From the NCBI RefSeq assembly GCF_030689685.1, contig NZ_JAUYEY010000067.1, forward strand, positions 1 through 64,000: a DNA stretch of 64,000 nucleotides. Direction: 5' to 3'. The stretch's first letter is position 1. Each line of letters starts with the position of its first letter. The notes beneath the pieces are model-generated. The model saw only the letters and a program-made list of their open reading frames with translations. It did not search any database and was not told the DNA's origin. Shown here in pieces: positions 7,982 to 46,182 of this stretch. Made by a program: the position numbers and the translations under genes. The stretch is from Polaromonas sp. Lineage in GTDB: Bacteria; Pseudomonadota; Gammaproteobacteria; Burkholderiales; Burkholderiaceae_C.

Positions 7982-10840
7982 TCAACGTTTGAGCAGGGCC
8001 TTCAGCGCATTCTGCACGCGCCGTGCATTGCTGGCGTCAAAGCTGGCGGCCAGCACCTTGGCAGCGTCTTCACCCCAGGTCTCTGCCGGTGCAGGCGCAT
8101 TGCGTTTGGTCAGCAACTGCAGCTGTAGCATGCGGCGCGCGCTGATGTGTTCGGCAGGCGTCGGCAACTCGGCGGCGATCTCCAGGCGCAGCAGGGCTTC
8201 AGAAGCGTCTTTGCCAGGCGCGGCACCCAGCGCCTGAACCCAGCTGCTGCGCACCGCTGGCGTGACCAGCTTGCCCAACTCCTGCGCGGCCGGCAATTGC
8301 GCCGGATCGCGTTTTTCCCATGCGCTCAGCAGATTCGTCAGTACCTCACCATGCGCATGCATAGAGAGTTTTTTCAAGGCCTGGTTGGCCGCCTCAAACG
8401 CCTCACGCTGGGCCCGGAAGGCCGCGTCGCCCAGCCGCGGACCACGCTCTTCAAAAGCCGGGCGCTCGCCGCGATCCGGACGCGCCTCAAAACTGCGCTC
8501 CGGGCGGTAAGGCTCAAACTTGTTGTCGGTGCTGGCGCGCGGACCGCCGGGCTTGCCGCCGGGACGCGCATCCTTGCGGTCGCCAAATTTGCCGCCACGG
8601 CCTGTAGATGCAGGATCGGCTTTGCGCATGCCGGGACGGTCGTCGCCCCGCATGGCGACCACCGGTTTCGGGGCCGGCTTGGGCGCGGGCGGCGGCGCGG
8701 CAGCTTCTGGCGCTGTAGCCGCTACTGCCTCCGCCTCCGCCTCCGCTTCCGCTTCCGCTTCCGCTTCGGGCTCTGTAGCGGCATTCCCTTCAGCCGGTAC
8801 AACTTCTGGCGTCTCGGGAGTTGCTATGATTTCGATAGCTGCTTGCGCAGGTACAGCGTGGGCTACAGCCCGATTTTGCTCTGAATCCGGAGTCTCTTCG
8901 GGCATTTGCACTGGAGCTAGAACTTCAGCTAGCGCCGAGGCAACAGGCACCTGCCCGCGAACCACCGCCTCCAGCGCCTTGGCAGCGGCATGAATTTTCT
9001 GCGCATCACCCGTCGCAGCGGCAGCGTCCACCGCTTTGGCGGCTTCCAGCACACGGCGGTCATGCTCACCCAGCGCGGATGCGGCTTTTTCGCGCTCAAC
9101 GGTCTTGCGCTGGAAGGCATCGTCAATCGGCTTGCGGAAGGCATCCCAGAGCTTTTGCTCCTGCTTGCGCTCGATCGGCACGGCCTGCGCCTCGTGCTGC
9201 CAGCGCTGCTGCAGGTGCTTGACCGCATCGATATGCAGTTGCGGCTCGGCGCCCAGCACCTGGGCTTCTTCAATCATCGCCCTGCGGCGCGCCAGGCTGT
9301 CGGCACGCGCGGCTTTCAGCGCGGCATCGGCGGCATCCATCGCGGTCTTCCATTGCGGCTGGATCTCGGCAAAGGCTTTTTCGCTCAGGTGGCCGGCTGC
9401 AGTCCACTTCTCGACAAAACCGTTGAGGCTGCGGATCTGGTGCTTCCAGTCGGTGTTGCCCTGGTTGGCTTCGGCCCAGGTCAGCACCTCGTCGATCAAC
9501 ACGCGGCGCTCGGCCTTGACGGCTTCGCTTTGCTCCTTGACCTTGTCGAGCCAGGCTTCGACGACCTTGTGGGCTTCGTTGCAGGCGTCGTCAAAACGCT
9601 TCCACATGGCGTGATTGGGTGTGCCGCCCTGGTCGCTGGTTTTCCAGAGTTCGCGCATCGCGCGCAAGGCTTCCTGCTGCTTGCGACCGCCCAGGGGTTT
9701 GGCCACCAGGGCTTCGGCCTTGGCCACCAGCTCTTCACGAATCTGGTCGGCACGCCAGCGTTGCCAGCCTTCCAGTTCGCCAGCAGCCGTGAGCGCCGCA
9801 TGGGCGGCGGCCTCCAGGGTGTTGTCAATGTTGCGGATGTTTTCTTTCAGCGCCTGGCGCAACTCAGCGGCCACTTTGGGGGTGGACTTGCCGTGGCCCT
9901 CGGTGACTTCATGCTCCAGCCTGGCGAGCGCAGCCTGCACGATGGCGGTCGATTTTTCGCGCATCTCCTTGAGCACGGCAGGATCGATTTTGGCCTTGGG
10001 CGCGCGCGCGGGATGATCCCCCGCTGCTGCGTCACCGCCGCGTGGTGTGCCGCGTGCTGCGCGCAACTCGTCAGCCCAGACCGGCACGGCCGGCAGCGGC
10101 GCGGCCGCATCTTCGGCGGCGGCCACGGCCAGCGAGAGAGCGCCCTGGAAGGCTTCCCACACGGCCAGCAACTGGCCACGCGAGGCTTCGAGCAGCGGCG
10201 GAAACTTGGCATCCACGCTGGCCCAATTGGCGTCTTGCGCGATCTCGTCGGCCTGGGCCTGCCAGTGCGCCACGTCGGCACGCAATGCGTCCCAGGCGGA
10301 CTGGGCATCGCGCCATGATTTGGTCGACAACACTTCAATGCGCTGCGCAATCAGCACGGCGGCCTCGCGCTGCACCTGTGCGCGGTGCTGCAGGTCTTCA
10401 ATCGTCTTGACGCGGTCAGCGAGTTGGCCCTTCAGGCCGGCCAGGGGTTCGCGCGACAGCGGCGCACCGGCCTTGGCCGCATCACGCTGCCAGGCCAGCG
10501 CGTCGGCCAGGTTGAGTTTTTTCAGCGCCAGCAGGGCCTGGCCTTTTTCAGCCCACTCGGCCGCAACAGCCTCCTGGTTCTTGGCGCGTTTGGCTTCGTC
10601 GAGTTTTTCCTTGAGCGGCTTGGCGGCACCCTTGTCGCGATTCGCCAGGTCTTTAAAAACCTCGGCCATCTGCTCGGCGCTGGGTTCGGTGGCCAGCCAC
10701 TCGCGGATGCGCGCCGTACGCTCACCGGAGGTCGGCGCCGAGAAGGCACCGCCGGTCAGGCCGTCCAGGGGATGGCTGTCGGCCGGTTTGGTGGACGGCG
10801 TTTTCACGGCGGAAGTTTCTGGCTTGGAAGGTTTGGACAT
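7982..10840 (-). CDS. DUF349 domain-containing protein with low-complexity linker
   Basis: Repeated helical segments containing W..F/LW..F motifs typical of DUF349; start chosen at MSKPSKPETS. Confidence 0.8.
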   Translation of the reverse strand: MSKPSKPETSAVKTPSTKPADSHPLDGLTGGAFSAPTSGERTARIREWLATEPSAEQMAEVFKDLANRDKGAAKPLKEKLDEAKRAKNQEAVAAEWAEKGQALLALKKLNLADALAWQRDAAKAGAPLSREPLAGLKGQLADRVKTIEDLQHRAQVQREAAVLIAQRIEVLSTKSWRDAQSAWDALRADVAHWQAQADEIAQDANWASVDAKFPPLLEASRGQLLAVWEAFQGALSLAVAAAEDAAAPLPAVPVWADELRAARGTPRGGDAAAGDHPARAPKAKIDPAVLKEMREKSTAIVQAALARLEHEVTEGHGKSTPKVAAELRQALKENIRNIDNTLEAAAHAALTAAGELEGWQRWRADQIREELVAKAEALVAKPLGGRKQQEALRAMRELWKTSDQGGTPNHAMWKRFDDACNEAHKVVEAWLDKVKEQSEAVKAERRVLIDEVLTWAEANQGNTDWKHQIRSLNGFVEKWTAAGHLSEKAFAEIQPQWKTAMDAADAALKAARADSLARRRAMIEEAQVLGAEPQLHIDAVKHLQQRWQHEAQAVPIERKQEQKLWDAFRKPIDDAFQRKTVEREKAASALGEHDRRVLEAAKAVDAAAATGDAQKIHAAAKALEAVVRGQVPVASALAEVLAPVQMPEETPDSEQNRAVAHAVPAQAAIEIIATPETPEVVPAEGNAATEPEAEAEAEAEAEAEAVAATAPEAAAPPPAPKPAPKPVVAMRGDDRPGMRKADPASTGRGGKFGDRKDARPGGKPGGPRASTDNKFEPYRPERSFEARPDRGERPAFEERGPRLGDAAFRAQREAFEAANQALKKLSMHAHGEVLTNLLSAWEKRDPAQLPAAQELGKLVTPAVRSSWVQALGAAPGKDASEALLRLEIAAELPTPAEHISARRMLQLQLLTKRNAPAPAETWGEDAAKVLAASFDASNARRVQNALKALLKR
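8727..8768. repeat. hexanucleotide tandem repeat (GCCTCC/GCTTCC)7 encoding Glu-Ala repeats
   Basis: Seven consecutive 6-bp units, in-frame in the DUF349 gene. Confidence 0.9.
8821..8877 (+). repeat. ~57-bp palindrome-headed repeat, copy C (inside the DUF349 CDS, antisense)
   Basis: TTGCTATGATTTCGATAGCTGCTTGCGCAGGTACAGCGTGGGCTACAGCCCGATTTT aligns to the other four copies. Confidence 0.8.
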
Positions 10841-11039
10841 GGGAAAACGCAGCATAAAAATTAATAACAGCCGGTCGGATCAACCGTGCTGGCGGTAGGC
10901 CAGCACACGCGGCCAGGAAGGGTAGGGAAGGTGAACGGTCAGCGAAAAAAAAGGGGTCACGGCTCGCAAGGCCTGAACACACCCACGCTTTAAAAATAAA
11001 GCACTGCGGGTATTTTCGCTGTTTTTACGGCATCGCCAA

Positions 11040-11552: not shown

Positions 11553-11655
11553 TTATTGAGCGTTTCAAATCAATCCTTCACCCCACACCTCTCCGCAAGG
11601 GCGAGGGTGAGAGCCGTCCAAATCACTGTCGTGTAATTGAAAAAGATCAATCCGG
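11553..11655 (+). repeat. dispersed ~95-125 bp repeat (CTCACCCC...GAGGGTGAGA...), copy F1
   Basis: TTCACCCCACACCTCTCCGCAAGGGCGAGGGTGAGAGCCGTCCAAATCACTGTCGTGTAATTGAAAAAGATCAAT matches copies at 39.8 and 40.8 kb. Confidence 0.8.
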
Positions 11656-13277: not shown

Positions 13278-13330
13278 AGGGTCTGGCCGGCGTCCGATCT
13301 GGGGTTTCGGCAGCGACTCCGTTACACTAA

Positions 13331-13458
13331 GGCGGTGCGCGACTGGCGATAGGCTTGCCCTGATCACGGGGCAAGGCTGACGTGGGATTACCACTGGGAA
13401 GCGCACCGTCGGCTGTCATCGGTGACAGCGGCGTTCAGCCGTTCGCCTGGGCAGCCCT
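13331..13458 (+). promoter_or_regulatory. ZTP (pfl) riboswitch upstream of glyA
   Basis: GGTGCGCGACTGGCGATAGG...GTGGGATTACCACTGGGAAGCGCACC...GCCGTTCGCCTGGGCAG matches the pfl core; GGTGCGC/GCGCACC helix. Confidence 0.9.
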
Positions 13459-13509
13459 TGTTTCATGCACCCCCGTGCCAGGACAGGGACCACGTCTTGA
13501 AGGACTGCC

Positions 13510-14754
13510 GTGTACAACCGAAACATTCTCGTCGAACAAACCGACCCCGAACTGTGGGCTGCCATCCTCGCTGAAAACGCGCGCCAGGAGCACCACATCG
13601 AGCTGATCGCCAGCGAAAACTACGCCTCGCCCGCCGTGATGGCCGCGCAGGGCTCGCAGCTCACCAATAAATACGCCGAAGGCTACCCCGGCCGCCGCTA
13701 CTACGGCGGCTGCGAACATGTGGACGTGGCCGAGCAACTGGCGATTGACCGCGTCAAGAAAATATTCGGCGCAGAAGCCGCCAACGTGCAGCCGCATTGC
13801 GGCGCATCTGCCAACGAAGCCGTGTTTCTGGCTTTTCTCAAGCCCGGCGACACCATCATGGGCATGAGCCTGGCCGAAGGTGGCCACCTGACCCATGGCA
13901 TGGCGCTGAACATGAGTGGCAAGTGGTTCAAGGTGGTGAGCTACGGCCTGAACGACAAGGAAGAAATCGACTACGACGCCATGGAACGCAAGGCTCACGA
14001 GTCAAAACCCAAGCTGATCATTGCGGGCGCCTCGGCTTACAGCCTGCGGATCGACTTTGAGCGTTTCGCCAAAGTGGCCAAGGCCGTCGGTGCGATCTTC
14101 ATGGTGGACATTGCCCACTACGCCGGCCTGGTCGCTGCGGGCGTCTACCCGAATCCGGTGCCGCACGCCGACGTGGTGACATCGACCACACACAAAAGCC
14201 TGCGCGGCCCACGCGGCGGCATCATCCTGATGAAGGCCGAACACGAAAAAGCCATCAACAGCGCCATCTTCCCCGGCCTGCAGGGCGGCCCGCTGATGCA
14301 TGTGATCGCGGCGAAAGCCGTTGCCTTCAAGGAAGCACTGGCCCCCGAGTTCAAGACCTACCAGCAGCAGGTGTTGAAAAACGCACAGGCCATGGCAGAG
14401 ACGCTGACACAGCGCGGACTGCGCATCGTCAGCGGCCGCACTGAAAGCCACCTCATGCTGGTCGACCTGCGCGCCAAGGGCATCACCGGCAAAGAGGCTG
14501 AAGCCGTGCTGGGCAGCGCGCACATGACCATCAATAAAAACGCGATTCCCAACGACCCGGAAAAACCCATGGTGACCAGCGGCGTGCGCATCGGCACCCC
14601 GGCCATGACGACGCGCGGCTTCAAGGACGAAGAAGCGCGTTTGACGGCCAACCTGATCGCAGACGTGCTCGACAATCCCCGTGACACGGCGAACATCGAA
14701 GCGGTCCGCGCCAAGGTCAACGCACTGACCAGCCGTTTCCCGGTTTACCGCTGA
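13510..14754 (+). CDS. glyA: serine hydroxymethyltransferase
   Basis: [42 protein letters not shown]. Confidence 0.98.
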
Positions 14755-14774
14755 ATCCGCAGCACTGCGCAGAC

Positions 14775-14828
14775 GCTATTATTTTTATAGCTGCCTGCGC
14801 ATATCCAACAAGGGCTGGAGGCCAATTG
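14775..14828 (+). repeat. ~57-bp palindrome-headed repeat, copy A (intergenic glyA-nrdR)
   Basis: GCTATTATTTTTATAGCTGCCTGCGCATATCCAACAAGGGCTGGAGGCCAATT. Confidence 0.85.
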
Positions 14829-14853
14829 TGCTTATAAACTCAGGCAAGGCAGC

Positions 14854-15789: not shown

Positions 15790-18700
15790 CTACTTAAGCT
15801 GGCGCCAGATCTGCCGACTAACTCCGCTGCTGGTGCCAGAAGTGGTTGAAGGCCTTAAATTTATCTGGAGCACCTGAGTTTTTCCACAAACCCCATTGAT
15901 GCAGACCGTTTGTTGACCACCAACACTGGTTGAGAAGGTCGTCGTAGAAATAGTGTCATTAAATATAGTCTGACTGATATACAGAGCTGGCGGGCCATTG
16001 TCCTGCAGCACAAAAACACCTCGGGGCGACCCACCGCGAATGCGAACCGAGTTTGCAGTGATATCGCTGAATACTTTTTTGTATCCACCCGTCAAGGCAT
16101 CTACTCCTGTGATCCAAGCATCCAATCCGGCTTCGCAATCATCCACACTCGGAACAATCGAGGTAAACAAAAACGCATCCACTACACCGGAGACGGTATA
16201 ACGTACCGGTGGAGCTATCACCCGCTCCCCTGCGGTGATATTAGCTCCTGTCAACGGTACCACCCATCCTTTCTTTCCTGCCACCGTATACCAATCTGGC
16301 GTTGCGCCCGCTGATGTCGTACGAACGTCACTGGTGACACCCCCGACCGGGGCAGGCATATTGATAGTCATCGACGACAGCGTCGACTCCGCGACGAACG
16401 GCGTGGAACTGAGGGTATGCAGCAAGTCGTCATAAATGCCATACAACGCCTGCACTGTAGTGATGGCCGGGTCCGCCGCGCTCAAATAACTACCCGTTCC
16501 AAAGTAGATCATCTTGCCACCCGTCGTGTTAGCGTGCAAGGGCGCTGCACCGACCTTGATCTCGGCTGTGATAGGTCTTCCCGTCGGGGTGGTGTAAATC
16601 AGGGCGCCGGCACTGCCAGAACTTGGATCAAAGCGCCAGATATTTCCTTTGTAGTCCGCGCCGTACACGTACTCGATCGTGTCTCGGTTGCCCGATGTTT
16701 TTCGAACCAGCTCGACTGCCCCCATACCATTGCTCGTGAGGGAAGCGTTGGTCGGTATGACCCGGAGAATATTACCGTCGCTTAATCTCACGACGTAGAG
16801 ATTCGCTGTTCCCGCGCTGCTGTTGTAGCCATTGCCAAAAATAGCAACCCAAGTTCCGTCTGCCAGCTTGCCGATACCGGGCCGGCCCATGATGTTGCCA
16901 AATGTCGTGCCAACACCAGAGGTGGACGAATTGATTTCCCACAAAATGCTGTTGGCAGAAAATGTTTTTGAACTGGCATTGACAGCAAACACTGTTTTGG
17001 CGCCACTACCGCCAGCAGCAACCACCACGGTCCGCCAATTGGTGGTGGCATCACCGGGCACAGTGATCTTGGCGTGCCCGACAGCGATCGAGCCATCCAC
17101 AAAATTTTGGTGCTGGTAGCCTGGGTCTGCCAAATTTTTAACACTGCCCCTCACCGCCTGCGGCATAAAACCGAGCAATTCGCCGCCGCCAGTTGCGTCC
17201 GGCTCTGCATCAAAAATATGGAAAAATCCGCTGTTTGTCCCCACTGCGAGCGTTTCAAAATTAATTGAACTCAAAAAACTTGTGTAAGTCGAGTCACTCG
17301 CTGCATAGTCCAAATTTTTCGCTGAAATAATTTGCGGATCAGAATTAACAATATCGCCCAATACCGAGCCGTAATCGGCCGCTGCTGTACTGCCGCGGTT
17401 TCGGAAATTGCCCCCTCTTCGCTCCTCTCCAGTTTTGTCGCCTAGAAGGTACTCATAAGTTGGGGCGTTAACAAAGTCAGTTTGCACAGTACCTGGCAAC
17501 GTGGCATAGCCGCCAGAAGTCAAGGCAAGAGGTGCAGTTGCTCCCCCCTGGCCAAGAAACAGCTTGGTGCGCGACGCCGGGACAGGGATTTTTGAAGAAA
17601 CTTCCCAAATAGGTGTGTCAGATACCGCGCCGCTCGTTGCAATGGAAAAAGCGTACAAGCGCGAAGTCCATGTCAGCGAATCGTAGTTGGCCTGGTAAAT
17701 GGCGGCTGATCCCAAGCTCCGCTGCCCCACACCCACCACGCTGGTGCTGGCCACTGCCGCCAATGCAGCAGCAGAACGGAAGGCCTTGGCCATCTGGTCC
17801 GGAAGGTTGGCTGGATTGTTGACTTTGAAATAATTGGTGGGATCACCGTTGGAGTCCAGCAGGCCCGCGCCACCGTATTTGGCGGCGTACCACAAGGTGT
17901 CATGCGGTATGTAGCCTGAGACTGTCGAACTTGCCGCGAAATCCAAGGTGCGGGAAGTGGCAAGGTGCGGCAACACCGTGCTGTTGGCTCGAGACCCGTC
18001 CGCAGGAGCGGGGTCCTGAACCGTCGGAGTCAGGAGCGTATCCAGGTAATACTTGATTTGAGGATTCACTCGAACGCTGGGGTTACCGATTTTGGGCCTG
18101 CTGGACATGTCCAGATATAGGCCGTCTTTGGTCGTTCCGGTGATGGTGTAACCAAGGTGCATTTCAATGTCGGCAGCACTTGTATTGATAGGTGACAGCG
18201 CCACAACCACCTTGCCAGCAGCATTAATACTGACGGTGTAACCAACCACCGCATCGGTTTCGTTGTCGCCGCCAGCGTCGGTGTCAGAAAAGTTCACGAC
18301 AAAAGACATCGTTGGCCGCCCGCCGTTGATGGCTGCGTTGTAGTCGGGCCCCGTGGTTCCGCTGGTGTTGTTGAAAGTGTCCAGGTAAAAGCCGGTGATG
18401 GAACCCGTTGGCTGAAACGCGCCATAGGCTGAACTGCTGACGAGGTTGCTGGGACCTACCGATTTGGAAACAGGAACCATTGAGACTGTTTTACCGTTGT
18501 ATGAAATTTCGATTTTTGGCACTACGCTACCAAGAACCACAGCAATGGTGTCTACTGTTGCGTTGGTCGTCGTCATGGGCACCGATGGGGGGTTGCCAAT
18601 CTGGAAGCCTGTTACTTTTCCAAAACGCGCTATCGCCGCAGAATAAAAACTCCCGCGCGACTGCGTGGCGTCCGGCACATGTCCCTGGAGCTGCGCAAAA

Positions 18701-20490
18701 GAACTGGCAGGTTTCGCCGTAGGGTTTCCGTCACTGAGCGTGCCCGACTGGCCAATGAAGACGTTCCGTGTCCCCAGATTTTCCGACTTTGTAACCGGAG
18801 ACGTCACCGGCGGGGGGCCCCAGATGATGTTGGATTGGGTGGTCACATTCACCCCGGCAAGGTCGCCTTGGGGAGGAGCAAGCGGGTTGCCCATTTGCGC
18901 CAGTACCGGAAAGTACGCCCCCGGAATCCCGTCATTGTCAAATGTGGTCACCGCGTCCGCAATCACCATCTGTACAGGACGCGAACAGATGGGACTGCCC
19001 CCATCCGCTTTGGCCCTGAAAGGGTTTTGCCACGGTGAGGAGCCCGTGCCCATCAATGGCAGTTGAAGCCTTGAGTCCGGTGAATTGTTGACATTGACAC
19101 CATTCGCATATGCCGAAAATCCCGAGCCTTTCCCCGCAAAATAACGTAGCCCTTCGTACATCATTTCCCCGATAGGAGCCCCCCATGAAGGGCAAGCACC
19201 TTCTATCTGCAATGAATTGAAATTGTTATTGCAGTAATATCCGTCCCCTTTCCAGCCATAGATGGAAATGCGGTCGATGGTTCGGGCTATACCGTCAACC
19301 GTCGCCGTGCCTTCGGTCACCTGCCGAAAAACGCCATTGGAAGGAGTTACCTCATCTGAAAATTTGGCAATGTTGCGACGGACAACCCCGCCAGAGTAAT
19401 TGTTCCTGAATGAACCAGTGAGCAAGCCAAATTTCAGTTGGTCGCTGACCGAATAGTCATGCAACACACCCGTTGGCTTCCATATAACAGGTGCCGCTGC
19501 AGGGTACCCCGTACAGCCTGTTTCCCGGGCGCCGCTCAAGGTAACGCAGGCCTCGACCCTAAGGGTGTAGGCTGTACTGGTGATACCAAAGGCAGTACTG
19601 GCGGCAATATTGGCATTGCCATCTGCAGAAGTCCAGTTCCAGATGCGATTGGTAACCTGATCGGCATTAAGTATCACCCGCAGTCTCGGGGCTGGCATTG
19701 GAAATGGATAGACACCCGAACCCGCATTCGCAGGCGTAGTCCCTGATGCGTAAGCATCACTTCTCACGGCAAACAGATGCTGCTTGCCCGCTGCGGGCGC
19801 CGCGAGGTCGGTGTAGTGGGTGATGTTGTAGCTGTCGCGCCCCGTCACCGGCCTGTATTCTTTGCCCCAGACATGGCTGTCCTGGGGAATAAACGCCCCT
19901 TGTAAAACCGTGGTGCCTGACGCTGAGGTGGGGTCTGACACGCGATGACCTCCGTACAGTACGCGGCGAAGCGCATCCATGCGCGAAGTCGTGGCCCAGT
20001 TCAGCCAATTTCCGTGCCACCGCGCGCTTGATGAAGCCGTCAAACACCCGTCACTGCTCTTGGCTACATCTTTAGGACTGAATCTTGAGTTACCCGAGTC
20101 GTACAAATAACAGCGATCCGACGCGAAGTTGCCATAGTAGGTAATGGAGGGCTTGAACCCGACGTCAGGTATGCCGTCGGCATTCAGATCGCTGGCATCG
20201 TTGTAGGCGGCATAAAAAAGTCGATGGTCCTTGCTCATGGTCAACATGACAAGACCAGGCGCACTTTTCAGAGCCAACAGCGGTACACCTGCAATACTCA
20301 CGGTGGTTTGCGCATTTGCGCTTTTCAGCGGCATGCCGCCCAGCGCCAGCGCTAAAACCAGCGCTGCAAGGTACCAGACGGTGGAGACAACCCGCTGCCG
20401 CCAATTCGCTGGCACAGTCCACGCCCTTCGCGGCCCCATGCCCAGGCCAATCACAGGTTTGTTTTCCGAAAAAATTGCTGGCTTGTTCAT
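15790..20490 (-). CDS. pilY1: type IV pilus tip/assembly protein PilY1
   Basis: 1566 aa, C-terminal PQQ-like beta-propeller (EYVYGADYKGNIWRFDPSS), position after pilX. Confidence 0.88.
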   Translation of the reverse strand: MNKPAIFSENKPVIGLGMGPRRAWTVPANWRQRVVSTVWYLAALVLALALGGMPLKSANAQTTVSIAGVPLLALKSAPGLVMLTMSKDHRLFYAAYNDASDLNADGIPDVGFKPSITYYGNFASDRCYLYDSGNSRFSPKDVAKSSDGCLTASSSARWHGNWLNWATTSRMDALRRVLYGGHRVSDPTSASGTTVLQGAFIPQDSHVWGKEYRPVTGRDSYNITHYTDLAAPAAGKQHLFAVRSDAYASGTTPANAGSGVYPFPMPAPRLRVILNADQVTNRIWNWTSADGNANIAASTAFGITSTAYTLRVEACVTLSGARETGCTGYPAAAPVIWKPTGVLHDYSVSDQLKFGLLTGSFRNNYSGGVVRRNIAKFSDEVTPSNGVFRQVTEGTATVDGIARTIDRISIYGWKGDGYYCNNNFNSLQIEGACPSWGAPIGEMMYEGLRYFAGKGSGFSAYANGVNVNNSPDSRLQLPLMGTGSSPWQNPFRAKADGGSPICSRPVQMVIADAVTTFDNDGIPGAYFPVLAQMGNPLAPPQGDLAGVNVTTQSNIIWGPPPVTSPVTKSENLGTRNVFIGQSGTLSDGNPTAKPASSFAQLQGHVPDATQSRGSFYSAAIARFGKVTGFQIGNPPSVPMTTTNATVDTIAVVLGSVVPKIEISYNGKTVSMVPVSKSVGPSNLVSSSAYGAFQPTGSITGFYLDTFNNTSGTTGPDYNAAINGGRPTMSFVVNFSDTDAGGDNETDAVVGYTVSINAAGKVVVALSPINTSAADIEMHLGYTITGTTKDGLYLDMSSRPKIGNPSVRVNPQIKYYLDTLLTPTVQDPAPADGSRANSTVLPHLATSRTLDFAASSTVSGYIPHDTLWYAAKYGGAGLLDSNGDPTNYFKVNNPANLPDQMAKAFRSAAALAAVASTSVVGVGQRSLGSAAIYQANYDSLTWTSRLYAFSIATSGAVSDTPIWEVSSKIPVPASRTKLFLGQGGATAPLALTSGGYATLPGTVQTDFVNAPTYEYLLGDKTGEERRGGNFRNRGSTAAADYGSVLGDIVNSDPQIISAKNLDYAASDSTYTSFLSSINFETLAVGTNSGFFHIFDAEPDATGGGELLGFMPQAVRGSVKNLADPGYQHQNFVDGSIAVGHAKITVPGDATTNWRTVVVAAGGSGAKTVFAVNASSKTFSANSILWEINSSTSGVGTTFGNIMGRPGIGKLADGTWVAIFGNGYNSSAGTANLYVVRLSDGNILRVIPTNASLTSNGMGAVELVRKTSGNRDTIEYVYGADYKGNIWRFDPSSGSAGALIYTTPTGRPITAEIKVGAAPLHANTTGGKMIYFGTGSYLSAADPAITTVQALYGIYDDLLHTLSSTPFVAESTLSSMTINMPAPVGGVTSDVRTTSAGATPDWYTVAGKKGWVVPLTGANITAGERVIAPPVRYTVSGVVDAFLFTSIVPSVDDCEAGLDAWITGVDALTGGYKKVFSDITANSVRIRGGSPRGVFVLQDNGPPALYISQTIFNDTISTTTFSTSVGGQQTVCINGVCGKTQVLQINLRPSTTSGTSSGVSRQIWRQLK

Positions 20491-20510
20491 GGTGAACCCC
20501 TTAAAACTTG

Positions 20511-21125
20511 CTATGGCGTTGTCGTCTGGACATACATGACCTGCACAATGGACTCTGCAGCGCCTGATCCGCCGGTACTGCGTGCAGTCACTCTGTATGT
20601 GCGAGCAGTGGTAGTGGCACCTACCACAGTACTCACTAACTCAATCACATATTTCGCACTCTCGGAGTTGTTGGCATAAGGCGTGCCCACAGACGCAGCA
20701 CAGCTTGTCCAGCTGAACGGGGTCGTTGCAACGCATGCACCTGCTGCAACTGTCGCTCCTGCGCCTTGCGTCCAGAAATTTCCATTGTCACCCTCGCTGA
20801 ATGGGGGGTCGTAATGGCCGAGTGCGGCCGTCGAAAATCCGCCACTCTCAATAACCTGCAAAGCTTCTTTGCCCGCACTTTCGGCGGACTGGAAAGAAAC
20901 ATTTCGATCCAGCAGGTTACCTGTCATGCGTCCGGACAGGGTCGTGTTACGAAAACCAATCATGCCGATTGATATGAGCATGACCAACAAAACCAAACCA
21001 ATAATCAAGGTCATGCCGCGCTGCGATTTCCTCTGGAGCGGAAGGCGACATGAAAACGGTCTTCGCACTAAATCCACAGCGTGCTGGTTTCGAAGGAAAA
21101 TACTTGCAATGTGGCTATCTGGCAT
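20511..21125 (-). CDS. pilX: minor pilin assembly protein PilX
   Basis: RGMTLIIGLVLLVMLISIGMIGFRNTTLSGRMTGNLLDRNVSFQSAESA. Confidence 0.87.
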   Translation of the reverse strand: MPDSHIASIFLRNQHAVDLVRRPFSCRLPLQRKSQRGMTLIIGLVLLVMLISIGMIGFRNTTLSGRMTGNLLDRNVSFQSAESAGKEALQVIESGGFSTAALGHYDPPFSEGDNGNFWTQGAGATVAAGACVATTPFSWTSCAASVGTPYANNSESAKYVIELVSTVVGATTTARTYRVTARSTGGSGAAESIVQVMYVQTTTP

Positions 21126-21142
21126 ATGGTCTGTCCGTCCCT

Positions 21143-22327
21143 CTATCGTGCTGCAACACTGTTGCGCATAACCACGGTAGTGGAAAACTCTTTACGAAGC
21201 CGGTTGGTCGATGAGCCAGTAGGCAGGGAATAGGCTTGCCCCAACAATGTGGGTGTCGTCAACGCAACATCGGGGCTGGTGTGGTCCTCTGCGCTGACCA
21301 TCATCAGCCCTACACGTACTGCAACGATGCGCCCCCAGTCAGTCACAGTTGCCGCAGAGCTACGCCACTCATCAGCGACAAGCGTAGCGGACCCGCTAGC
21401 ATCTACCTGGGTATTTTCACCATAATGCAGTTGCATGCTTTCTACGTTAGACACAAGCTCTTCAGGGTTGGATCTGCTTATGCCATTGAAAGTAATTCGA
21501 TACAGACTAGGCGTGGAAGAACCACTGCGGGTTGCGACATAAAAAAAATTCCATTGCGCCAACATGACAATCGCCCCAGCTCGGGCGCTCGCGCCGGAGG
21601 TGATAGGAGGACCAAACTGGTAGCTGTTGGTGAATGTGTCCGCACTGTTGCCGGTTCCGTCGTGGGCAATGGTTGTAACGCCTGCGCTGGTACTCACCGT
21701 CCCCTCAAAAATGCTGGATGAATTGCAATCAGAAACGATCATGGTGTTTGCACCGCTCCAGCCATACACATTGGAAGAAATAGTCAACGGCGAATTGCCT
21801 GACGGCATCTCCACCGTGACGCCAACAGTATTAGCGCCGCCGCCCGCGAAAAATAGGCTGTCTGTGCCATTGGATGCAGGAACCGCTCCAGACGAGAACA
21901 TCGCGCTTGGCACGCTGTCAAAACCGCGAATGAAATTAAGCGACGTGAAGGGCTGCACCGTCACCTCCGCGTTGCCGGATTCAACAGTTGCCAACGGATT
22001 GGGGCCGCTGATGGTGTTCGGATTTGACGACGCCAGGACATTGCCCGGATAACGAGTCGTCACACCCGCCACCGTCAGCGTCTGGATGCCGGAGCAACCC
22101 GCAAAACCAGCCATGCGAAGCTCTCTTGCGATGGTATCCAGTGCAAAATTCGCGTCTTCCTGCAATCGGCCAGTACTCTCCTGAAAGCGAAAGGCGCTTT
22201 TTACCGCAACATACACCGAAGACAGTCCTATAAGCACGGCCATACTTAACACGAGCGAAATCATTAGCTCGATCAGCGTAAACCCCCTTTGCCCACTGCC
22301 ACGACGACTACTTTGAAATTTCCTCAT
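21143..22327 (-). CDS. pilW: minor pilin PilW
   Basis: [38 protein letters not shown]. Confidence 0.87.
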   Translation of the reverse strand: MRKFQSSRRGSGQRGFTLIELMISLVLSMAVLIGLSSVYVAVKSAFRFQESTGRLQEDANFALDTIARELRMAGFAGCSGIQTLTVAGVTTRYPGNVLASSNPNTISGPNPLATVESGNAEVTVQPFTSLNFIRGFDSVPSAMFSSGAVPASNGTDSLFFAGGGANTVGVTVEMPSGNSPLTISSNVYGWSGANTMIVSDCNSSSIFEGTVSTSAGVTTIAHDGTGNSADTFTNSYQFGPPITSGASARAGAIVMLAQWNFFYVATRSGSSTPSLYRITFNGISRSNPEELVSNVESMQLHYGENTQVDASGSATLVADEWRSSAATVTDWGRIVAVRVGLMMVSAEDHTSPDVALTTPTLLGQAYSLPTGSSTNRLRKEFSTTVVMRNSVAAR

Positions 22328-22854
22328 AGCCGCAACTCAAAAACAAAAGTTTGGAAAGCTGCAACTGAATTATCCGTACACGCGGTGGTCGCGGCTTCAC
22401 TCAAGGTTCCCAGGCAATTGGACCAGCGCACCTCAATCTCCAGTTTGCGAGCACCACCGGAGACGGTATTGGTGATTTTTCCGTCACCCTGCGGCAATTG
22501 AACCGCTAGGGCCTCCAGCCACTCTTTTTTATCCTTCATGGCTATTGTTGTAGGACTGGCGGGCGGCGTGTCTGCGTAAGCCGTAATGTATTGGCTGGTT
22601 GCAGACAATGCCACCGTCGGATTGGCGCGAATCCGGTCAGCCATGTCTGCGGCCAGTTGGCTGGCTTTGGACATAGCTTCGGACGCCGCAGCATTGGATA
22701 TACCCTTGACCAGCAGTCCAGCGACGCCCAACAGTCCAAACGACAGAATCACCATGGTGACCAAAACTTCTATCAAGCTGAAGCCTACCTGCTTATTGGT
22801 CGCCTTGGTAGCGCGTTTTGGTGCACGCGGGAAGAAGTGAGGCTCTTTTGTCAT
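22324..22854 (-). CDS. pilV: minor pilin PilV
   Basis: VGFSLIEVLVTMVILSFGLLGVAGLLVKGI. Confidence 0.87.
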   Translation of the reverse strand: MTKEPHFFPRAPKRATKATNKQVGFSLIEVLVTMVILSFGLLGVAGLLVKGISNAAASEAMSKASQLAADMADRIRANPTVALSATSQYITAYADTPPASPTTIAMKDKKEWLEALAVQLPQGDGKITNTVSGGARKLEIEVRWSNCLGTLSEAATTACTDNSVAAFQTFVFELRL

Positions 22855-22874
22855 ATGAGGTTGCTTCTACACTT

Positions 22875-23522
22875 CTAGTCCGTAGGGCAGCTTGCACCGC
22901 TGGCCACACGGGTGGTTCGTACACGACCTGACACGTTAAGAACAAGACAATGTCGTTCACTGGTATCGTCAAAGAACCAAAACGACCGATTGGCCGACGC
23001 TCCTGTCGTGGTAATCAATCGCCCCACTCCGTTGTAGGTAAAGTAATTGAGTGTTCCCGTTTGCCCTGTGCTGATAGGTCCCGATGGCGCTGAAACTACC
23101 TCCACGCGAGTCACGCCTGTAACGCCCGTCGTATCGGCCGTTGGAGCCACCCCTGCGTTAGCGGTCCCTGTACCATCCACAAATACCGTCCAGCCGTTGA
23201 CCCAGACGCCAGCTACAGTATTTGCTGCAACCGTGACTCGCGCGTCGGCACCGCGCTTGACAGCCTCCGACCTTGCCAGGCTGAGAGACACTTGCAACGC
23301 GGATACCGCTGCGGAAAGACGGTTGCGTCGCAACATGTCGGCAAAAGAAGGCGCGGCGAGGGCTGCCAAAATAGCCACGATCACGACCACTACCATCAGC
23401 TCAATAAGAGTAAATCCCGCCGAAAACCACCCGATTTTCGGCAAAAGTCTGATTCGGGATTGCTGGCCCATATCCCCTAACCCAAACGAAGTTTCTCTGT
23501 CCATATAGAGGATGTTACGCAA
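22875..23522 (-). CDS. fimT: GspH/FimT family pseudopilin
   Basis: [35 protein letters not shown]. Confidence 0.85.
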   Translation of the reverse strand: MRNILYMDRETSFGLGDMGQQSRIRLLPKIGWFSAGFTLIELMVVVVIVAILAALAAPSFADMLRRNRLSAAVSALQVSLSLARSEAVKRGADARVTVAANTVAGVWVNGWTVFVDGTGTANAGVAPTADTTGVTGVTRVEVVSAPSGPISTGQTGTLNYFTYNGVGRLITTTGASANRSFWFFDDTSERHCLVLNVSGRVRTTRVASGASCPTD

Positions 23523-27527: not shown

Positions 27528-28741
27528 TACGCAGCATGACGCCCCTGCGGATCGCCCGGCGCGCCCAGCGCATTGAGCCTTTTTACGTGATGGAAGTCGC
27601 CAAGGCGGCGGCCAGCCTGGCCAGGGAGGTCGCGCACACGTCCCGGCCCATGATCTTCCTCAACATTGGCGAGCCGGACTTCACCGCGCCGCCGCTGGTC
27701 CAGCAGGCCGCAGCACGCGCCATCCACGATGGCAACACGCAGTACACCCAGGCCACCGGCCTGCAGAGCCTGCGTGAGCGTATCAGCAGTTGGTACGCTA
27801 CACGGTTTCAGGCAGATGTGGCGCCGTCCCGCATCATCGTCACCGCCGGCGCATCGGCGGCGCTGCAACTGGCCTGCCTGGCGCTGATCGAGGCCGGCGA
27901 CGACATCCTGATGCCGGACCCGAGTTACCCCTGCAACCGGCATTTTGTCAGCGCCGCCGAAGGCAATGCGGTGCTGGTGCCGACCACAGTCGATGAACGC
28001 TTCCAGCTCAGCAGCGCCAAGGTGCAGGCGGCGTGGACCGACCACACGCGCGGTGTCCTGCTGGCTTCGCCCTCGAATCCCACGGGCACCTCGATTGCCC
28101 CGGATGAACTGCGTCGCATCCACGAATTTGTGCACAGCCGCGGCGGCATCACGCTGGTCGACGAAATCTACCTGGGCCTGAGTTACGAAGAAGACTTCGG
28201 TCACACCGCACTGGCCATGGGGGATGGCTTGGGCCAAAGCATCATCAGCATCAACAGCTTCAGCAAGTACTTCAACATGACCGGCTGGCGCCTGGGCTGG
28301 TTGGTGGTGCCCGAAGAGCTCGCGCCGGTGATCGAGCGTATTGCGCAAAACCTGTTCATCTGCCCCAGTACGGTGGCGCAGCACGCGGCGCTGGCCTGCT
28401 TCGAGCCCGAGAGCCTGGCCGAATACGAGCGGCGCCGCGCCGAGTTCCGGGCCAGGCGCGACTACTTTATTCCCGAGTTGAATCGCCTTGGCCTGACGGT
28501 ACCGGTGACGCCGGACGGGGCGTTTTATGCCTACGCTGACTGCACGGATGCCGCGAAACGGCTGGGTGTGTCAGGCAGTTGGGACTTCGCTTTCGAACTG
28601 ATGAAGCGCGCGCACCTGGCCGTGACACCGGGCCGTGACTTCGGAACCATGGCGCCCGAGCGCTACATCCGCTTTTCCACAGCCAGTTCGATGGCACAAC
28701 TGAAAGAAGCTGTCGCACGATTGGAGGCGGTGCTTGCTTAA
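27524..28741 (+). CDS. pyridoxal-phosphate-dependent aminotransferase
   Basis: [11 protein letters not shown]...[15 protein letters not shown] (class I/II PLP lysine). Confidence 0.92.
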
Positions 28742-29155
28742 GCCGGCCGCCTTCCAGTGGCCGCTGCGCGTGTACTGGGAAGACACCGATGCCGGCGGCA
28801 TCGTGTTTTACGCCAACTACCTGAAATTTTTTGAACGCTCGCGTACCGAATGGCTCAGATCACTGGGGATTGAACAACAGGCACTGCGCGAGCGTACCGG
28901 CGGCATGTTTGTGGTGACGGAAACCAATGTGCATTATCACCGGCCCGCGCGTCTTGACGACGAACTGATTGTTACCGCCAGCCTGATCGAAAAAGGCCGC
29001 GCGTCCTTGATAATCGGTCAAAGTGCGCTATTAAAATCAGAGCACGCACAGGTGCTGTTGTGTGAAGACACGATACGCATTGGCTGGGTTGACGCCGCTG
29101 TTCTGAAACCTGCAAGAATTCCTGCTCACCTCCTCGACCGTCTGGAAACCACAAC

Positions 29156-29159
<4 letters not shown>
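28734..29159 (+). CDS. ybgC: YbgC-type acyl-CoA thioesterase of the tol-pal cluster
   Basis: RVYWEDTDAGGIVFYANYLKFFERSRTEWLR. Confidence 0.95.
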
Positions 29160-31338: not shown

Positions 31339-31394
31339 TTGCTATCAATAAAGTAGCTGCTCTCGCCCAACTGGTATGGGCTAGAGCCCGATTT
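31339..31394 (+). repeat. ~57-bp palindrome-headed repeat, copy B (tolA-dnaE intergenic)
   Basis: TTGCTATCAATAAAGTAGCTGCTCTCGCCCAACTGGTATGGGCTAGAGCCCGATTT. Confidence 0.85.
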
Positions 31395-34300
31395 CATTCA
31401 TAAACTATTTTAGCCAGCCCCTGGTCGGCCTGGGCCATCCAGCTTGCCAGCGCCGCATCGGTCGGGAAAAACTTCGCGGCATCACCGAGTTGCAACTCGG
31501 CGACGACGCTGCTGCGCTTGAGGCTCAGGCGCACCGGCAATCCGCGGCTGACTTCACCCTGCTCCGACATTTCCTTGCGCGGCGGAAAGTCCCGCACGAT
31601 GCGCTGCACGTCCGGCGCACTGCCGTTGACCGCCACGCGCAGGTATTTGCCGAAGCGGCAACGCGCCGACTCCAGGCTCCAGACCTGCGTCACCTTGAAG
31701 CGTCGGCCAAAACGCTCAGATGCAGGCTGAAGCGTGCCCTGCACAATCACCAGCTCATCGTCCTTGAGCAGGTTGCGGTTGGCGTTGAAGGTGGCCTCGT
31801 CCACCGAAGCTTCCAGCGTGTCGGTCTTGTCGTCGAGCTTGAAAATGATCAGCTTGCCGCGGTTACCGTTGATCACCCGCAGATCGCTGACGATGGCTGC
31901 CAGCAGGGTCTGATCGCGCGAGTCAATCAAATCGTCGATCGTGCGTTTGACGAACTGCCGCACCTCGGTTTCCACTTCATCAAACAGATGCCCGGAAAGA
32001 TAAAAACCGATGGCGGTTTTCTCCTGCACCAGGCGCGCCTTCACGCCGAAAGGCACGGCCTCGACCAGTGGCGGCTCCTGTGTGCTCGCTGCGTGCGAAT
32101 CCATGTCGAACAAGCCACCCTGATCGACATTGGCTTCGGCCTGGGCGGCAAATTCAAACGCCCGGTCCACCGAAGCCAGCAGTGATGCGCGGTTCAGCTG
32201 CAGGTTGTCGAAAGCACCGGCCTTGATCAGTGCTTCGACCGTGCGTTTGTTCATTTTGGTTTTGTCGACGCGCAAACAGAAGTCGAACAGGGAGGTGAAA
32301 GCACCACCCTCTTCGCGCGCCGCCACGATGGCGGCAATCGCCTGCTGGCCGGTGCCCTTGACCGCGCCCAGGCCGTAACGGATGCTGGTGTTGCTGATCG
32401 GCTCGAAGCGGTAGTGGCCACGGTTGACGTCGGGCGACTCGAAGCTGATGCCCATCTTCTGCGCATCGCCGAAAAGAATCCTGAGCTTGTCGGTGTCACC
32501 TATTTCCACCGTCATGTTGGCGCAGAAAAATTCGGCCGTGTAATGCCACTTCAGCCAGGCGGTGTGATAAGCCAGCAGCGCGTAGGCGGCCGAGTGCGAC
32601 TTGTTGAAGCCGTAGCCGGCGAACTTCTCCATCAGGTCAAAAACCTCGTCGGCCTTCTCCTGCGACAGGCCGTTGAGACCGGCACCCTTGCGGAAAATCT
32701 CCCGCTGCGAGGCCATCTCTTTCTCGTCCTTCTTGCCCATCGCGCGGCGCAGCATGTCGGCGCCACCCAAGGAATAGCCACCCAGGATCTGCGCGGTCTG
32801 CATCACCTGCTCCTGGTAGACCATGATGCCGTAGGTCTCCTCCAGGATGGGCTTGACGCGCGGGTCCGGGTACTCGGGTGTTTCCTTGCCCTGCTTGCGG
32901 GCGATGTAGGTCGGGATCAGGTCCATCGGACCCGGCCGGTACAGCGCGTTCATCGCAATCAGGTCTTCCAGACGGTTCGGCCTGGCGTCGCGCAACATGC
33001 GCTGCATGCCGATACTTTCAAACTGAAAAACGGCTTCAGTCTTGCCTTCCGCAAACAGCGCATAGACCTTGGGGTCGTCCAGCGGCAGGTTCTCGAATTT
33101 GAAGTCCTTTTGCACCGGATGCCGCTGGACGATGAAGTCTTTTGCCAGCTCGAGGATGGTCAGCGTAGCCAGCCCCAAAAAGTCGAACTTGACCAGGCCA
33201 ATCGCCTCGACGTCGTTTTTGTCAAACTGGCTCACCGCAGAGCTGCTGCCGGGTTGCAGGTACAGGGGGCAGAAGTCGGTGAGCTTGCCCGGTGCAATCA
33301 GCACGCCGCCCGCATGCATGCCGACGTTTCGCGTCAGGCCTTCGAGCTTGCGCGCCAGCTCAAGCAGGGTGCGGACGTCTTCTTCCTTGGCTTCGCGCTC
33401 GGCCAGCAGCGGTTCAGCCTCCAGCGCGTAGACCATCTTGTCGTTTTTCTTGCGGTCGGCAGGCACCAGTTGCAGGGTCACGGCCTGGCCGGGCTTGTTC
33501 GGCACCAGCTTGGAGATGCCATCGCAAAAGCCGTAGGAAAAGTCGAGCACACGGCCCACATCGCGAATCGCGGCGCGTGCGGCCATGGTTCCGAAGGTCA
33601 CGATCTGGCTGACCGCCGCATGCCCGTACTTGTCTTTCACATAGTCGATCACACGGTCGCGGTTGGTCTGGCAGAAATCAATATCGAAATCGGGCATGGA
33701 CACCCGCTCCGGATTGAGGAAACGCTCGAACAGCAGGTTGTACTGCAGCGGGTCCAGATCGGTGATCTTCAGCGAATACGCCACCAGTGAACCGGCGCCG
33801 GAGCCGCGTCCCGGCCCGACCGGGCAGCCGTTGTTCTTGGCCCAGTTGATGAAGTCGCCGACGATCAGGAAATAACCCGGGAACCCCATCTTGAGGATAG
33901 TGTTGATCTCGAACTCCAGCCGCTCCACATATTGCGGCCGCTTTTCATTGCGGATCGCCTCATTGGGGTACAGATGCCTCAGCCGCTCTTCCAGCCCCTC
34001 AAACGAGGTATGACGAAAATATTCGTCTGGCGGCATGCGCACGCCATTGACCTCCGGGGTCGGGTATTCAGGCAGCATGGCCTTGCCGAGTTCGAGCTTG
34101 AGGTTGCAGCGTTTGGCGATCTCCAGCGTGTTGTCCAGCGCCGAAGGCAGGTCGGCAAACAACTCGGCCATCTGCGCCGAGGACTTGAAATACTGCTCGC
34201 GCGTGAACTTGCGCACGCGCCGCGCATTGCCCAGGATCTCACCGCCGGCGATACAGACGCGGGCTTCGTGAGCTTCGTAGTCTTCGTAGCCCAGAAACTG

Positions 34301-35088: not shown

Positions 35089-35233
35089 GCCCCCACGGTC
35101 GTTCACTGCGTGTAACTCCCGAGGCCTTGCAGGCCGCGGCTTGCGAGACGCTTCGCCTCTGTCGCCTGTCCAAAGCTGCGCAGGCAGCTTTGGAGCCGCA
35201 GACTCCAGCCCCTCAGGGGCCGCTGCGTCTGCT
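35089..35233 (+). repeat. GC-rich mosaic repeat, copy R3
   Basis: GAGGCCTTGCAGGCCGCGGCTTGCGAGACGCTTCGCCTCTGTCGCCTGTCCAAAGCTGCGCAGGCAGCTTTGGAGCCGCAG...; near-match to the reverse complement of 44.9-45.1 kb. Confidence 0.8.
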
Positions 35234-39822: not shown

Positions 39823-39945
39823 GCGCGTTTCATGAAACCATGACAGTCGATACGCTCAAATCCCTCACCCCGACCCTCTCCCAGAGGGCGAGGGTGAGAT
39901 CGGTCCCATTCACTGCCGTGTGATTGGTAAAAGATCAATGGGGTG
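39823..39945 (+). repeat. dispersed ~95-125 bp repeat, copy F2
   Basis: GCGTTTCATGAAACCATGACAGTCGATACGCTCAAATCCCTCACCCCGACCCTCTCCCAGAGGGCGAGGGTGAGATCGGTCCCATTCACTGCCGTGTGATTGG. Confidence 0.85.
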
Positions 39946-43144: not shown

Positions 43145-44128
43145 ATGCAAACTTCAGCCAAAGGACTTCCAGCGGGCTACATCGGTCGTTTCGCCCCCTC
43201 GCCCACGGGGCCGCTGCATGCCGGCTCGCTGGTCGCGGCACTCGCGAGCTGGCTGGACGCGCAGGCCCACGGCGGCCAGTGGCTGGTGCGCATCGAGGAC
43301 ATCGACACGCCCCGCTGCGTTCCGGGTGCCGATGCCCTGATCCTGCAACAGCTGGCAGCCTGCGGACTGCTGCCCGATGCGCCGCCGCTGTACCAGTCGC
43401 AACGCAGCGCGGCCTACCAGGCCGCGCTTGATGCGCTGATCGGCAAGCAGCTTGCCTACCCCTGCGGCTGCACGCGGCAGGACATCGCGCTGGCGCTGGC
43501 TGAGGCTGGACAGCCCAAAGCCCGCCATGGCGAGCTGGTTTACCCCGGCACCTGCCGCCACGGGCTGGGCGGCCGCCCTGCGCGCGCCCGGCGCTTCCAG
43601 ACTGGGAATATTGAACAAAATTGGCCTCCAGCCCATGCTGGACATGGGAAAGTAGCTATTAATTTAATAGCAAATCTAGGACTCGACTGGCAAGACAGAC
43701 GCCTGGGCTCGCAGCATCAGGATGTGGCCCAGACCGTTGGAGACTTCGTGCTACAACGCGCTGACGGCCTGTGGGCCTACCAGCTCGCCGTCGTGGTGGA
43801 CGACGGCGCACAAGGCATCAGCGACGTGGTGCGCGGCGAGGATCTCGCCGACAACACCGCACGCCAGATCCTGCTGCAGCGCGCGCTGGGATTGCCGACA
43901 CCGCGCTACCTGCATGTGCCGCTGGTGCGGGGGGCAGACGGCGACAAACTGTCCAAGCAAAATGGCGCGCAGCCGCTGGACACTGGCGCGCCGCTGGCCA
44001 GCCTGAATGCCACAGCGCGATTGCTGGGCCTGCAGGTGGCCGCTGGCGGCGGCGTTGGGGACTGGCTGGCTCAGGCGGTGCAGCAATGGGCGGCCCTGTA
44101 CCCGCCGTCGGTCAACACGCGCCCGTAA
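43145..44128 (+). CDS. gluQ: glutamyl-Q tRNA(Asp) synthetase, carrying an in-frame repeat insertion
   Basis: [29 protein letters not shown]...[37 protein letters not shown]. Confidence 0.94.
43618..43675 (-). repeat. ~57-bp palindrome-headed repeat, copy D (inside gluQ, antisense)
   Basis: Reverse complement TTTGCTATTAAATTAATAGCTACTTTCCCATGTCCAGCATGGGCTGGAGGCCAATTTT aligns to copies A/B/C/E. Confidence 0.88.
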
Positions 44129-44914: not shown

Positions 44915-45111
44915 CCGCCGAGGCTCTCTCTTCACCAGCAGGGGCCGCGGATCTGGCTTTGCCAGTCCGCAGGCGCAGCGCCACCGAGGGGCTGGAGCCT
45001 GCGGCTCCAAACCTGCCTGCGCAGGTTTGGACAGGCGACAGAAGCGAAGCCTCTGGCGAGCGGCGGCCTGCAAGGCCTCGCGCAGTACGCGAAGCGACAA
45101 GCGTGGGGGCT
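44915..45111 (-). repeat. GC-rich mosaic repeat, copy R4 (reverse orientation)
   Basis: Reverse complement closely matches R3. Confidence 0.8.
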
Positions 45112-46026: not shown

Positions 46027-46182
46027 TCAAGCCCGGGCCGCAGGCGCAGCGCCCCCTCGGGGCTGGTGCCTGCGGCTCCGAACCTGCTTTGAGCAGGTTG
46101 GGACAGGCGCCAGAAGCGAAGCCTCTGGCGCGCGGCGGCCTGCAAGGTGCAGCAGCTACACGCAGTGAGCAAGCGTGGGGGC
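46027..46182 (-). repeat. GC-rich mosaic repeat, copy R5 (reverse orientation)
   Basis: Shares CAGAAGCGAAGCCTCTGGCG...GCGGCGGCCTGCAAGG...AAGCGTGGGGGCTCA with R4. Confidence 0.75.

Follow-up and report, generated by a model that had tools for sequence, protein, structure and literature searches.

A dispersed, palindrome-bearing DNA motif of Polaromonas with biased reading frames inside genes, a candidate signal for self-DNA recognition

Results

Motif copies in the window and their host genes

The window, a stretch of 64,000 nucleotides from Polaromonas sp. (contig NZ_JAUYEY010000067.1 of assembly GCF_030689685.1), contains copies of a motif of ~58 to 66 bp with the layout GCTAT-N7-ATAGCTGCTTGCGC...GGGCT..AGGCC.ATTT, which includes two inverted repeats. 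Its arms, GCTAT-N7-ATAGC, occur seven times in the 64-kb window when up to one mismatch is allowed, compared to 0.54 times in shuffled sequences. For copies within genes, S and A denote a gene on the same or the opposite strand as the element, respectively, and a denotes the frame with the codons GCT-ATN-NNN-NNN-ATA-GC. The copies and their host genes are the following.

7982-10855, - strand: DUF349 host ORF, 957 amino acids, uninterrupted, matching DUF349
8821-8878, + strand: focal copy, full 58-column motif, antisense in the DUF349 gene, frame Aa, peptide EQNRAVAHAVPAQAAIEIIA
14773-14830, + strand: intergenic copy, 18 bp past the stop codon of the SHMT gene (glyA) and before nrdR
28734-29159, + strand: 4HBT thioesterase host gene, matching the thioesterase family
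28988-29045, - strand: weak copy (26 bits) in the thioesterase gene, frame Ab, TAG avoided (GCTCT arm)
31339-31396, + strand: copy between convergent genes, ~22 bp past the stop codon of a TonB-like gene
43145-44128, + strand: gluQ host ORF, glutamyl-Q tRNA(Asp) synthetase, 327 amino acids
43616-43673, - strand: gluQ copy, antisense to gluQ, frame Aa
54627-55898, + strand: cca host gene, CCA-adding enzyme/poly(A) polymerase family, 423 amino acids
54904-54961, + strand: cca copy, sense, frame Sa, overlapping the conserved RRDLTINxIA motif

The focal copy has the sequence TTGCTATGATTTCGATAGCTGCTTGCGCAGGTACAGCGTGGGCTACAGCCCGATTTTG, and the translation of the DUF349 ORF includes EQNRAVAHAVPAQAAIEIIATPE. 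An earlier sequence-only reading of this DNA had described an element copy that lies antisense to the DUF349 gene and shares its frame with the gluQ copy. Both statements were borne out, as a full copy lies in the uninterrupted ORF and both copies are in frame Aa, but the list of intragenic copies given at that time was incomplete and lacked the cca copy and the weak thioesterase copy. Five further genomes of the Polaromonas group have a copy at the site orthologous to that of the focal copy (matrix scores, 23 to 45 bits), and five relatives have a match at the position of the weak thioesterase copy. In all element-bearing gluQ orthologs found in Polaromonas and other Comamonadaceae, the copy is present at the same site and in frame Aa. 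Of the two listed copies outside genes, the one behind glyA has kept its motif positions in relatives while its flank diverged, and the one at 31339-31396 is kept in six relatives.

The window also holds other features. A ZMP/ZTP riboswitch (13329-13459, + strand; Rfam RF01750, 60.5 bits) immediately precedes the serine hydroxymethyltransferase gene (13510-14754). Another dispersed repeat, unrelated to the motif and of the type CCTCACCCC...GAGGGTGAGA, is present at 11572-11644 and 39859-39931 in copies that are 79% identical, and a GC-rich repeat of ~118 bp with direct and inverted copies (35103-35220, 44962-45097, and 46033-46147) is possibly another repeat family. A minor-pilin operon (15790-23522, - strand) lies in a motif-free stretch of ~14 kb and encodes a GspH/FimT-like protein (22875-23522), a pilin with an N-methylation motif (22324-22854), PilW, PilX, and PilY1.

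Number, composition, and genomic placement of the motif

A position weight matrix of 58 columns was seeded from 32 copies, re-estimated, and used to scan 2.02 Mb, corresponding to 49% of the 4.11-Mb source genome. The scan yielded 299 matches of at least 10 bits and none in the reversed control, which excludes a chance origin of the motif. At a threshold of at least 16 bits, 293 separate copies were obtained, again with none in the reversed sequence; extrapolated from this half of the genome, there are about 600 copies per genome. Weak copies were scarce, only 12 of the 293 scoring below 30 bits. The information content reaches slightly past the 58 columns, from about -2 to +66, and the mean GC content of the motif is 49.5%, compared to 62% for the genome. 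With genes called by a purpose-written codon-usage ORF caller, 151 copies were intergenic, 52 were at gene edges, and 90 (31%) were within genes. Common strings of the motif were not found in print in the part of the literature that was searched.

Intergenic copies favor convergent regions (52 of 161, compared to 15% of intergenic bases) and avoid divergent, promoter-containing regions. Many of them begin 10 to 25 bp past stop codons, and they show no preferred orientation toward the upstream gene (50 copies run with it, 44 against it). Neighboring copies less than 500 bp apart are rarer than expected (2.2% versus 7.2%; p = 0.0005). On the closed chromosome of a relative, G132, copies are evenly spread (strands 53:49; half-chromosome contrast, p = 0.43), with neither strand polarity nor macrodomain clustering. 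The source genome has a slight tendency opposite to the skew (67 of 164 copies agree), and replication polarity was rejected for both genomes. A structured RNA was rejected as well: RNAalifold gave only a weak consensus structure, the arms showed no covariation or compensatory changes, and an Rfam search of the window returned the ZTP riboswitch as its sole match and none to the motif.

Reading-frame bias inside genes

The earlier reading had proposed that the element carries a permissive reading frame or that selection tolerates one frame. We therefore tabulated the frames of the 90 intragenic copies from about half of the genome, using as null expectation how often each frame is free of stop codons among the 151 intergenic copies. 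Observed counts (expected in parentheses) were Aa 46 (24.3), Sa 27 (29.9), Sb 9 (1.1), Ac 5 (21.0), Ab 2 (2.8), and Sc 1 (10.9). Frame use is thus strongly biased and not random (chi2 = 96.6; Monte Carlo p < 5e-6), and the bias persists at scores of at least 55, in high-scoring genes, and in genes of at least 300 amino acids. The idea of a permissive frame holds insofar as the bias is real, but there are two main frames, antisense-a and sense-a, rather than one.

Both the stop codon and the encoded peptide bear on this distribution. The b frames contain a TAG on either strand, and none of the nine Sb copies retains the T of this TAG, compared to 255 of the 284 other copies (p = 4e-9). These nine copies can use the Sb frame only because the stop codon is mutated. 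Among the stop-free frames, a is preferred over c by 73:6 (p = 1.8e-9). The c frames are often open and spell Cys/Ser-rich peptides with residue log-odds of -0.15 to -0.19 relative to the proteome, whereas the a frames spell ordinary Ala-rich peptides with log-odds of +0.11 to +0.12. We sampled 30 host proteins in which all six frames were represented, and every one matched Pfam families; the possibility that these hosts are pseudogenes was therefore ruled out.

Conservation as DNA and lineage dialects

Four orthologous loci were compared across Polaromonas. High-information columns of the motif were 83 to 91% identical, but low-information columns only 44 to 55%, which is as diverged as the flanks, and the correlation between column information and cross-species identity was 0.72 as a mean over the four loci. 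The corresponding values at third codon positions within gluQ were 0.89 and 0.55. Across 11 gluQ genes, the GCC, GCT, and TAGC blocks show little or no variation in the third position of their codons, while outside the element the mean identity of third positions is 63%.

Dialect and retention were measured in depth against one distant relative, G084, which carries 92 copies in 480 kb. Its consensus is ...TGCGCAAaAGgC..., compared to ...AtGGGCTggAGgC... in the genome of the window, with GCGCAAA in place of GGGCTGG. At 14 of 16 shared orthologous loci, G41 is changed to C in this relative. Judged from these sequences, the change is a lineage dialect. That fixed loci changed in concert is better explained by a reader acting in trans, or by conversion among the copies, than by neutral decay. 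The gluQ copy of another genome, G079, bears the same TTGCGCAAG dialect as G084, and from this copy the shift from G41 to C may define a clade. On the G132 chromosome, about half of the perfect palindromes are followed by TAC and not by TGC (GCTAC is approximately as frequent as GCTGC), an apparent further dialect.

Insertion as a unit or origin in place

Homologous host proteins with and without the motif differ in length to very different extents. In GluQ, the motif adds ~22 residues at one loop relative to homologs lacking it. This block is found in Polaromonas, Rhodoferax, Curvibacter, Hylemonella, and Simplicispira-type genomes and is absent from many relatives, and in the AlphaFold2 model residues 157 to 174 form a loop with a pLDDT below 50, the protein being well predicted elsewhere (mean of the whole protein, 81.8). 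The length gain is ~8 residues in the cca product and ~9 in CobU, and there is a difference of a few residues in NadE and in a DAO-family protein. In PurK (copy of 62 bits), the segment aligns to a PDB homolog without a gap, and in NIF3 (63 bits) the gap is one residue at most. At two further loci, C44:48623 and C44:51531, G084 lacks the motif, yet no length difference of 60 to 66 bp is present. Insertion as a unit therefore explains the family as a whole poorly. The motif profile has no visible terminal repeat, and intergenic copies gave no clean empty site at base level in alignments that are only ~75% identical.

The pairwise identity of the 293 copies equals that obtained when columns are shuffled within score bins (standard deviation, 4.45 versus 4.48 +/- 0.04), and the most similar pair scored 52 compared to 50 in shuffled columns. 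Near-identical pairs, recent duplicates, and subfamilies were not seen in this comparison. The copies have no genealogy and resemble independent draws from one motif; those of G084 are close to independent draws too, apart from a slight surplus of similar pairs. Active transposition was rejected on these grounds. The tacit premise of the earlier reading, that mobile copies were inserted into the genes, has become doubtful, given the missing genealogy and the unchanged length of at least two conserved proteins.

Occurrence in relatives and candidate machinery

The strict form of the pattern is present in 18 of 61 genomes of the family, and outside the family the model gave no match in a sample of the order under strict filters. 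Each of the 20 genomes tested for ComEC has it, and each of the seven tested for a GspH-type pilin encodes one. These genes permit uptake of DNA but do not favor this reading, as element-poor relatives have both. No GspH-type pilin other than that of the minor-pilin operon in the window was found in the genome, and this protein is a candidate reader of the motif. A single-copy Y1_Tnp gene has its nearest motif copy 1.6 kb away, and the gene was found both in motif-bearing genomes and in genomes lacking the motif. Mobilization by a RAYT was rejected, the single Y1_Tnp gene lacking flanking motif copies. One genome of another Comamonadaceae genus, G014, contains ~20 matches to Y1_Tnp (IS200-like), and several of these are identical to one another.

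Discussion

The element would be a dispersed, species-group-specific signal in double-stranded DNA that a factor acting in trans recognizes. It may be retained by selection or molecular drive wherever the host sequence tolerates it, that is, past stop codons and in frames that spell harmless peptides. That it acts at the DNA level, and is neither a mobile element nor a structural RNA, is well supported and probably correct. For the fuller statement, in which double-stranded DNA carries a recognition signal that is retained at permissive sites and most likely serves self-DNA uptake, the chances appear evenly balanced. We infer a binding protein, whose function may be self-DNA recognition during natural transformation; this specific role in uptake, judged from the analysis as a whole, is plausible but falls somewhat short of an even chance. 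The main difficulties for it are the long bipartite motif and the scarcity of partial matches, the latter not being an obvious expectation if copies grew gradually by point mutation. Another point against a signal that arose in place is the gluQ copy, which looks like a discrete insertion of ~22 amino acids.

The DNA-level evidence, namely the dialect, spacing, conservation, and missing genealogy, would fit equally well if the motif were the binding site of a nucleoid-organizing or chromosome-maintenance protein, with ~600 long, spaced sites co-evolving with the protein and tolerated by genes. A long bipartite motif with two dyads would even suit a multi-subunit complex. However, the G132 copies show neither the strand polarity nor the macrodomain clustering of KOPS- or matS-like sites, and if all sites must track one essential protein, a change at 14 of 16 loci is more difficult to account for than under uptake. 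We consider a nucleoid role rather unlikely and uptake more likely. Somewhat less probable still is an ancient selfish repeat of the REP, RPE, or MITE kind that spread by insertion, is now inactive, and persists as constrained remnants. The gluQ block that many relatives lack, the discrete, full-length copies with few partial matches, and the enrichment past stop codons and in convergent regions, which is typical of short repeats, would all be accounted for in this way. Such an origin is at odds with the lack of near-identical pairs and subfamilies among 293 copies, with PurK and NIF3, which show no gap (at most one residue in NIF3), with the conservation of the motif at third codon positions, and with the concerted dialect at orthologous loci. 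In addition, the copies avoid one another, and the Y1_Tnp gene has no adjacent copy and occurs irrespective of the motif.

The position of many intergenic copies 10 to 25 bp past stop codons, together with the enrichment in convergent regions, is also what a transcription terminator or mRNA-stabilizing hairpin would show if placed after genes and tolerated within them. This explanation is highly improbable in view of the balanced orientation toward the upstream gene (50 versus 44), the lack of compensatory changes in the arms and of an Rfam family matching the motif, and the 31% of copies that lie inside genes.

If the motif is kept at ~600 places, selection or drive at the DNA level writes peptides, such as xNxPxAHxxxAQAAIxxIA and others, into unrelated proteins, and the sharing of peptides of this kind by unrelated proteins is then no sign of homology. 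One third of the copies are intragenic and lie in functional genes of a family widespread in freshwater and soil. Should the uptake role hold, a new case would stand beside the Neisseriaceae and Pasteurellaceae, and self-DNA recognition in Burkholderiales would be directly testable; should it not, a chromosome-wide binding factor remains to be found.

Comparison with known systems

By description, the motif differs from the beta-proteobacterial repeat element BRE of Polaromonas and Bordetella, which is sometimes located in coding sequences, measures 75 to 91 bp, has a GC content of 69% in Bordetella, is often tandem, and does not exceed 29 copies in Polaromonas sp. JS666 (PMC3110155); length, a GC content of 49.5%, and a number of ~600 copies set the motif apart. 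With REP/REPIN elements and their RAYTs it shares a short, palindrome-bearing form, hundreds of copies, and a frequent position after genes. Unlike these, 31% of its copies are intragenic, the copies repel each other and are neither paired nor clustered, and the RAYT-like gene is not flanked by the motif and is also present in motif-poor genomes. It is unlike MITEs in having no near-identical members or subfamilies. RPEs are palindromic repeats within intact ORFs that can be read as part of a protein (PMC10969869, PMC3767692), and the Polaromonas-group motif likewise bears palindromes and is translated inside intact ORFs. RPEs, however, are insertions of 100 to 150 bp, whereas the motif is ~60 bp long, leaves at least two hosts unchanged in length, and shows no genealogy.

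The closest comparison is with the DNA uptake signals DUS of Neisseriaceae and USS of Pasteurellaceae, which accumulate in situ, have 35 to 65% of their copies in ORFs, show no orientation bias, and have dialects (PMC1939737, PMC3630211, PMC2346458). The motif is unlike them in length and architecture, having 58 to 66 bp and two inverted repeats, compared to 10 to 12 bp for DUS and a 9-bp core plus AT tracts for USS, and its information is spread over about 58 to 66 bp rather than concentrated in a short core of 9 to 12 bp. Its host family, the Comamonadaceae, is different as well. A third independent self-DNA recognition system, with an unusually long bipartite signal, dialects, and dozens to hundreds of proteins reshaped by having to tolerate its sequence in frame, can be proposed for this family only tentatively. 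Hundreds to thousands of dispersed copies, frame preferences, and the presence of type IV pilus and ComEC machinery are shared with DUS and USS (PMC1939737, PMC2346458, PMC3630211). The motif is likewise over-represented on both strands with no chromosome polarity (293 copies versus 0 in the control), lies within genes in 90 of 293 cases with a preference for certain frames, and has lineage dialects (14 of 16 loci).
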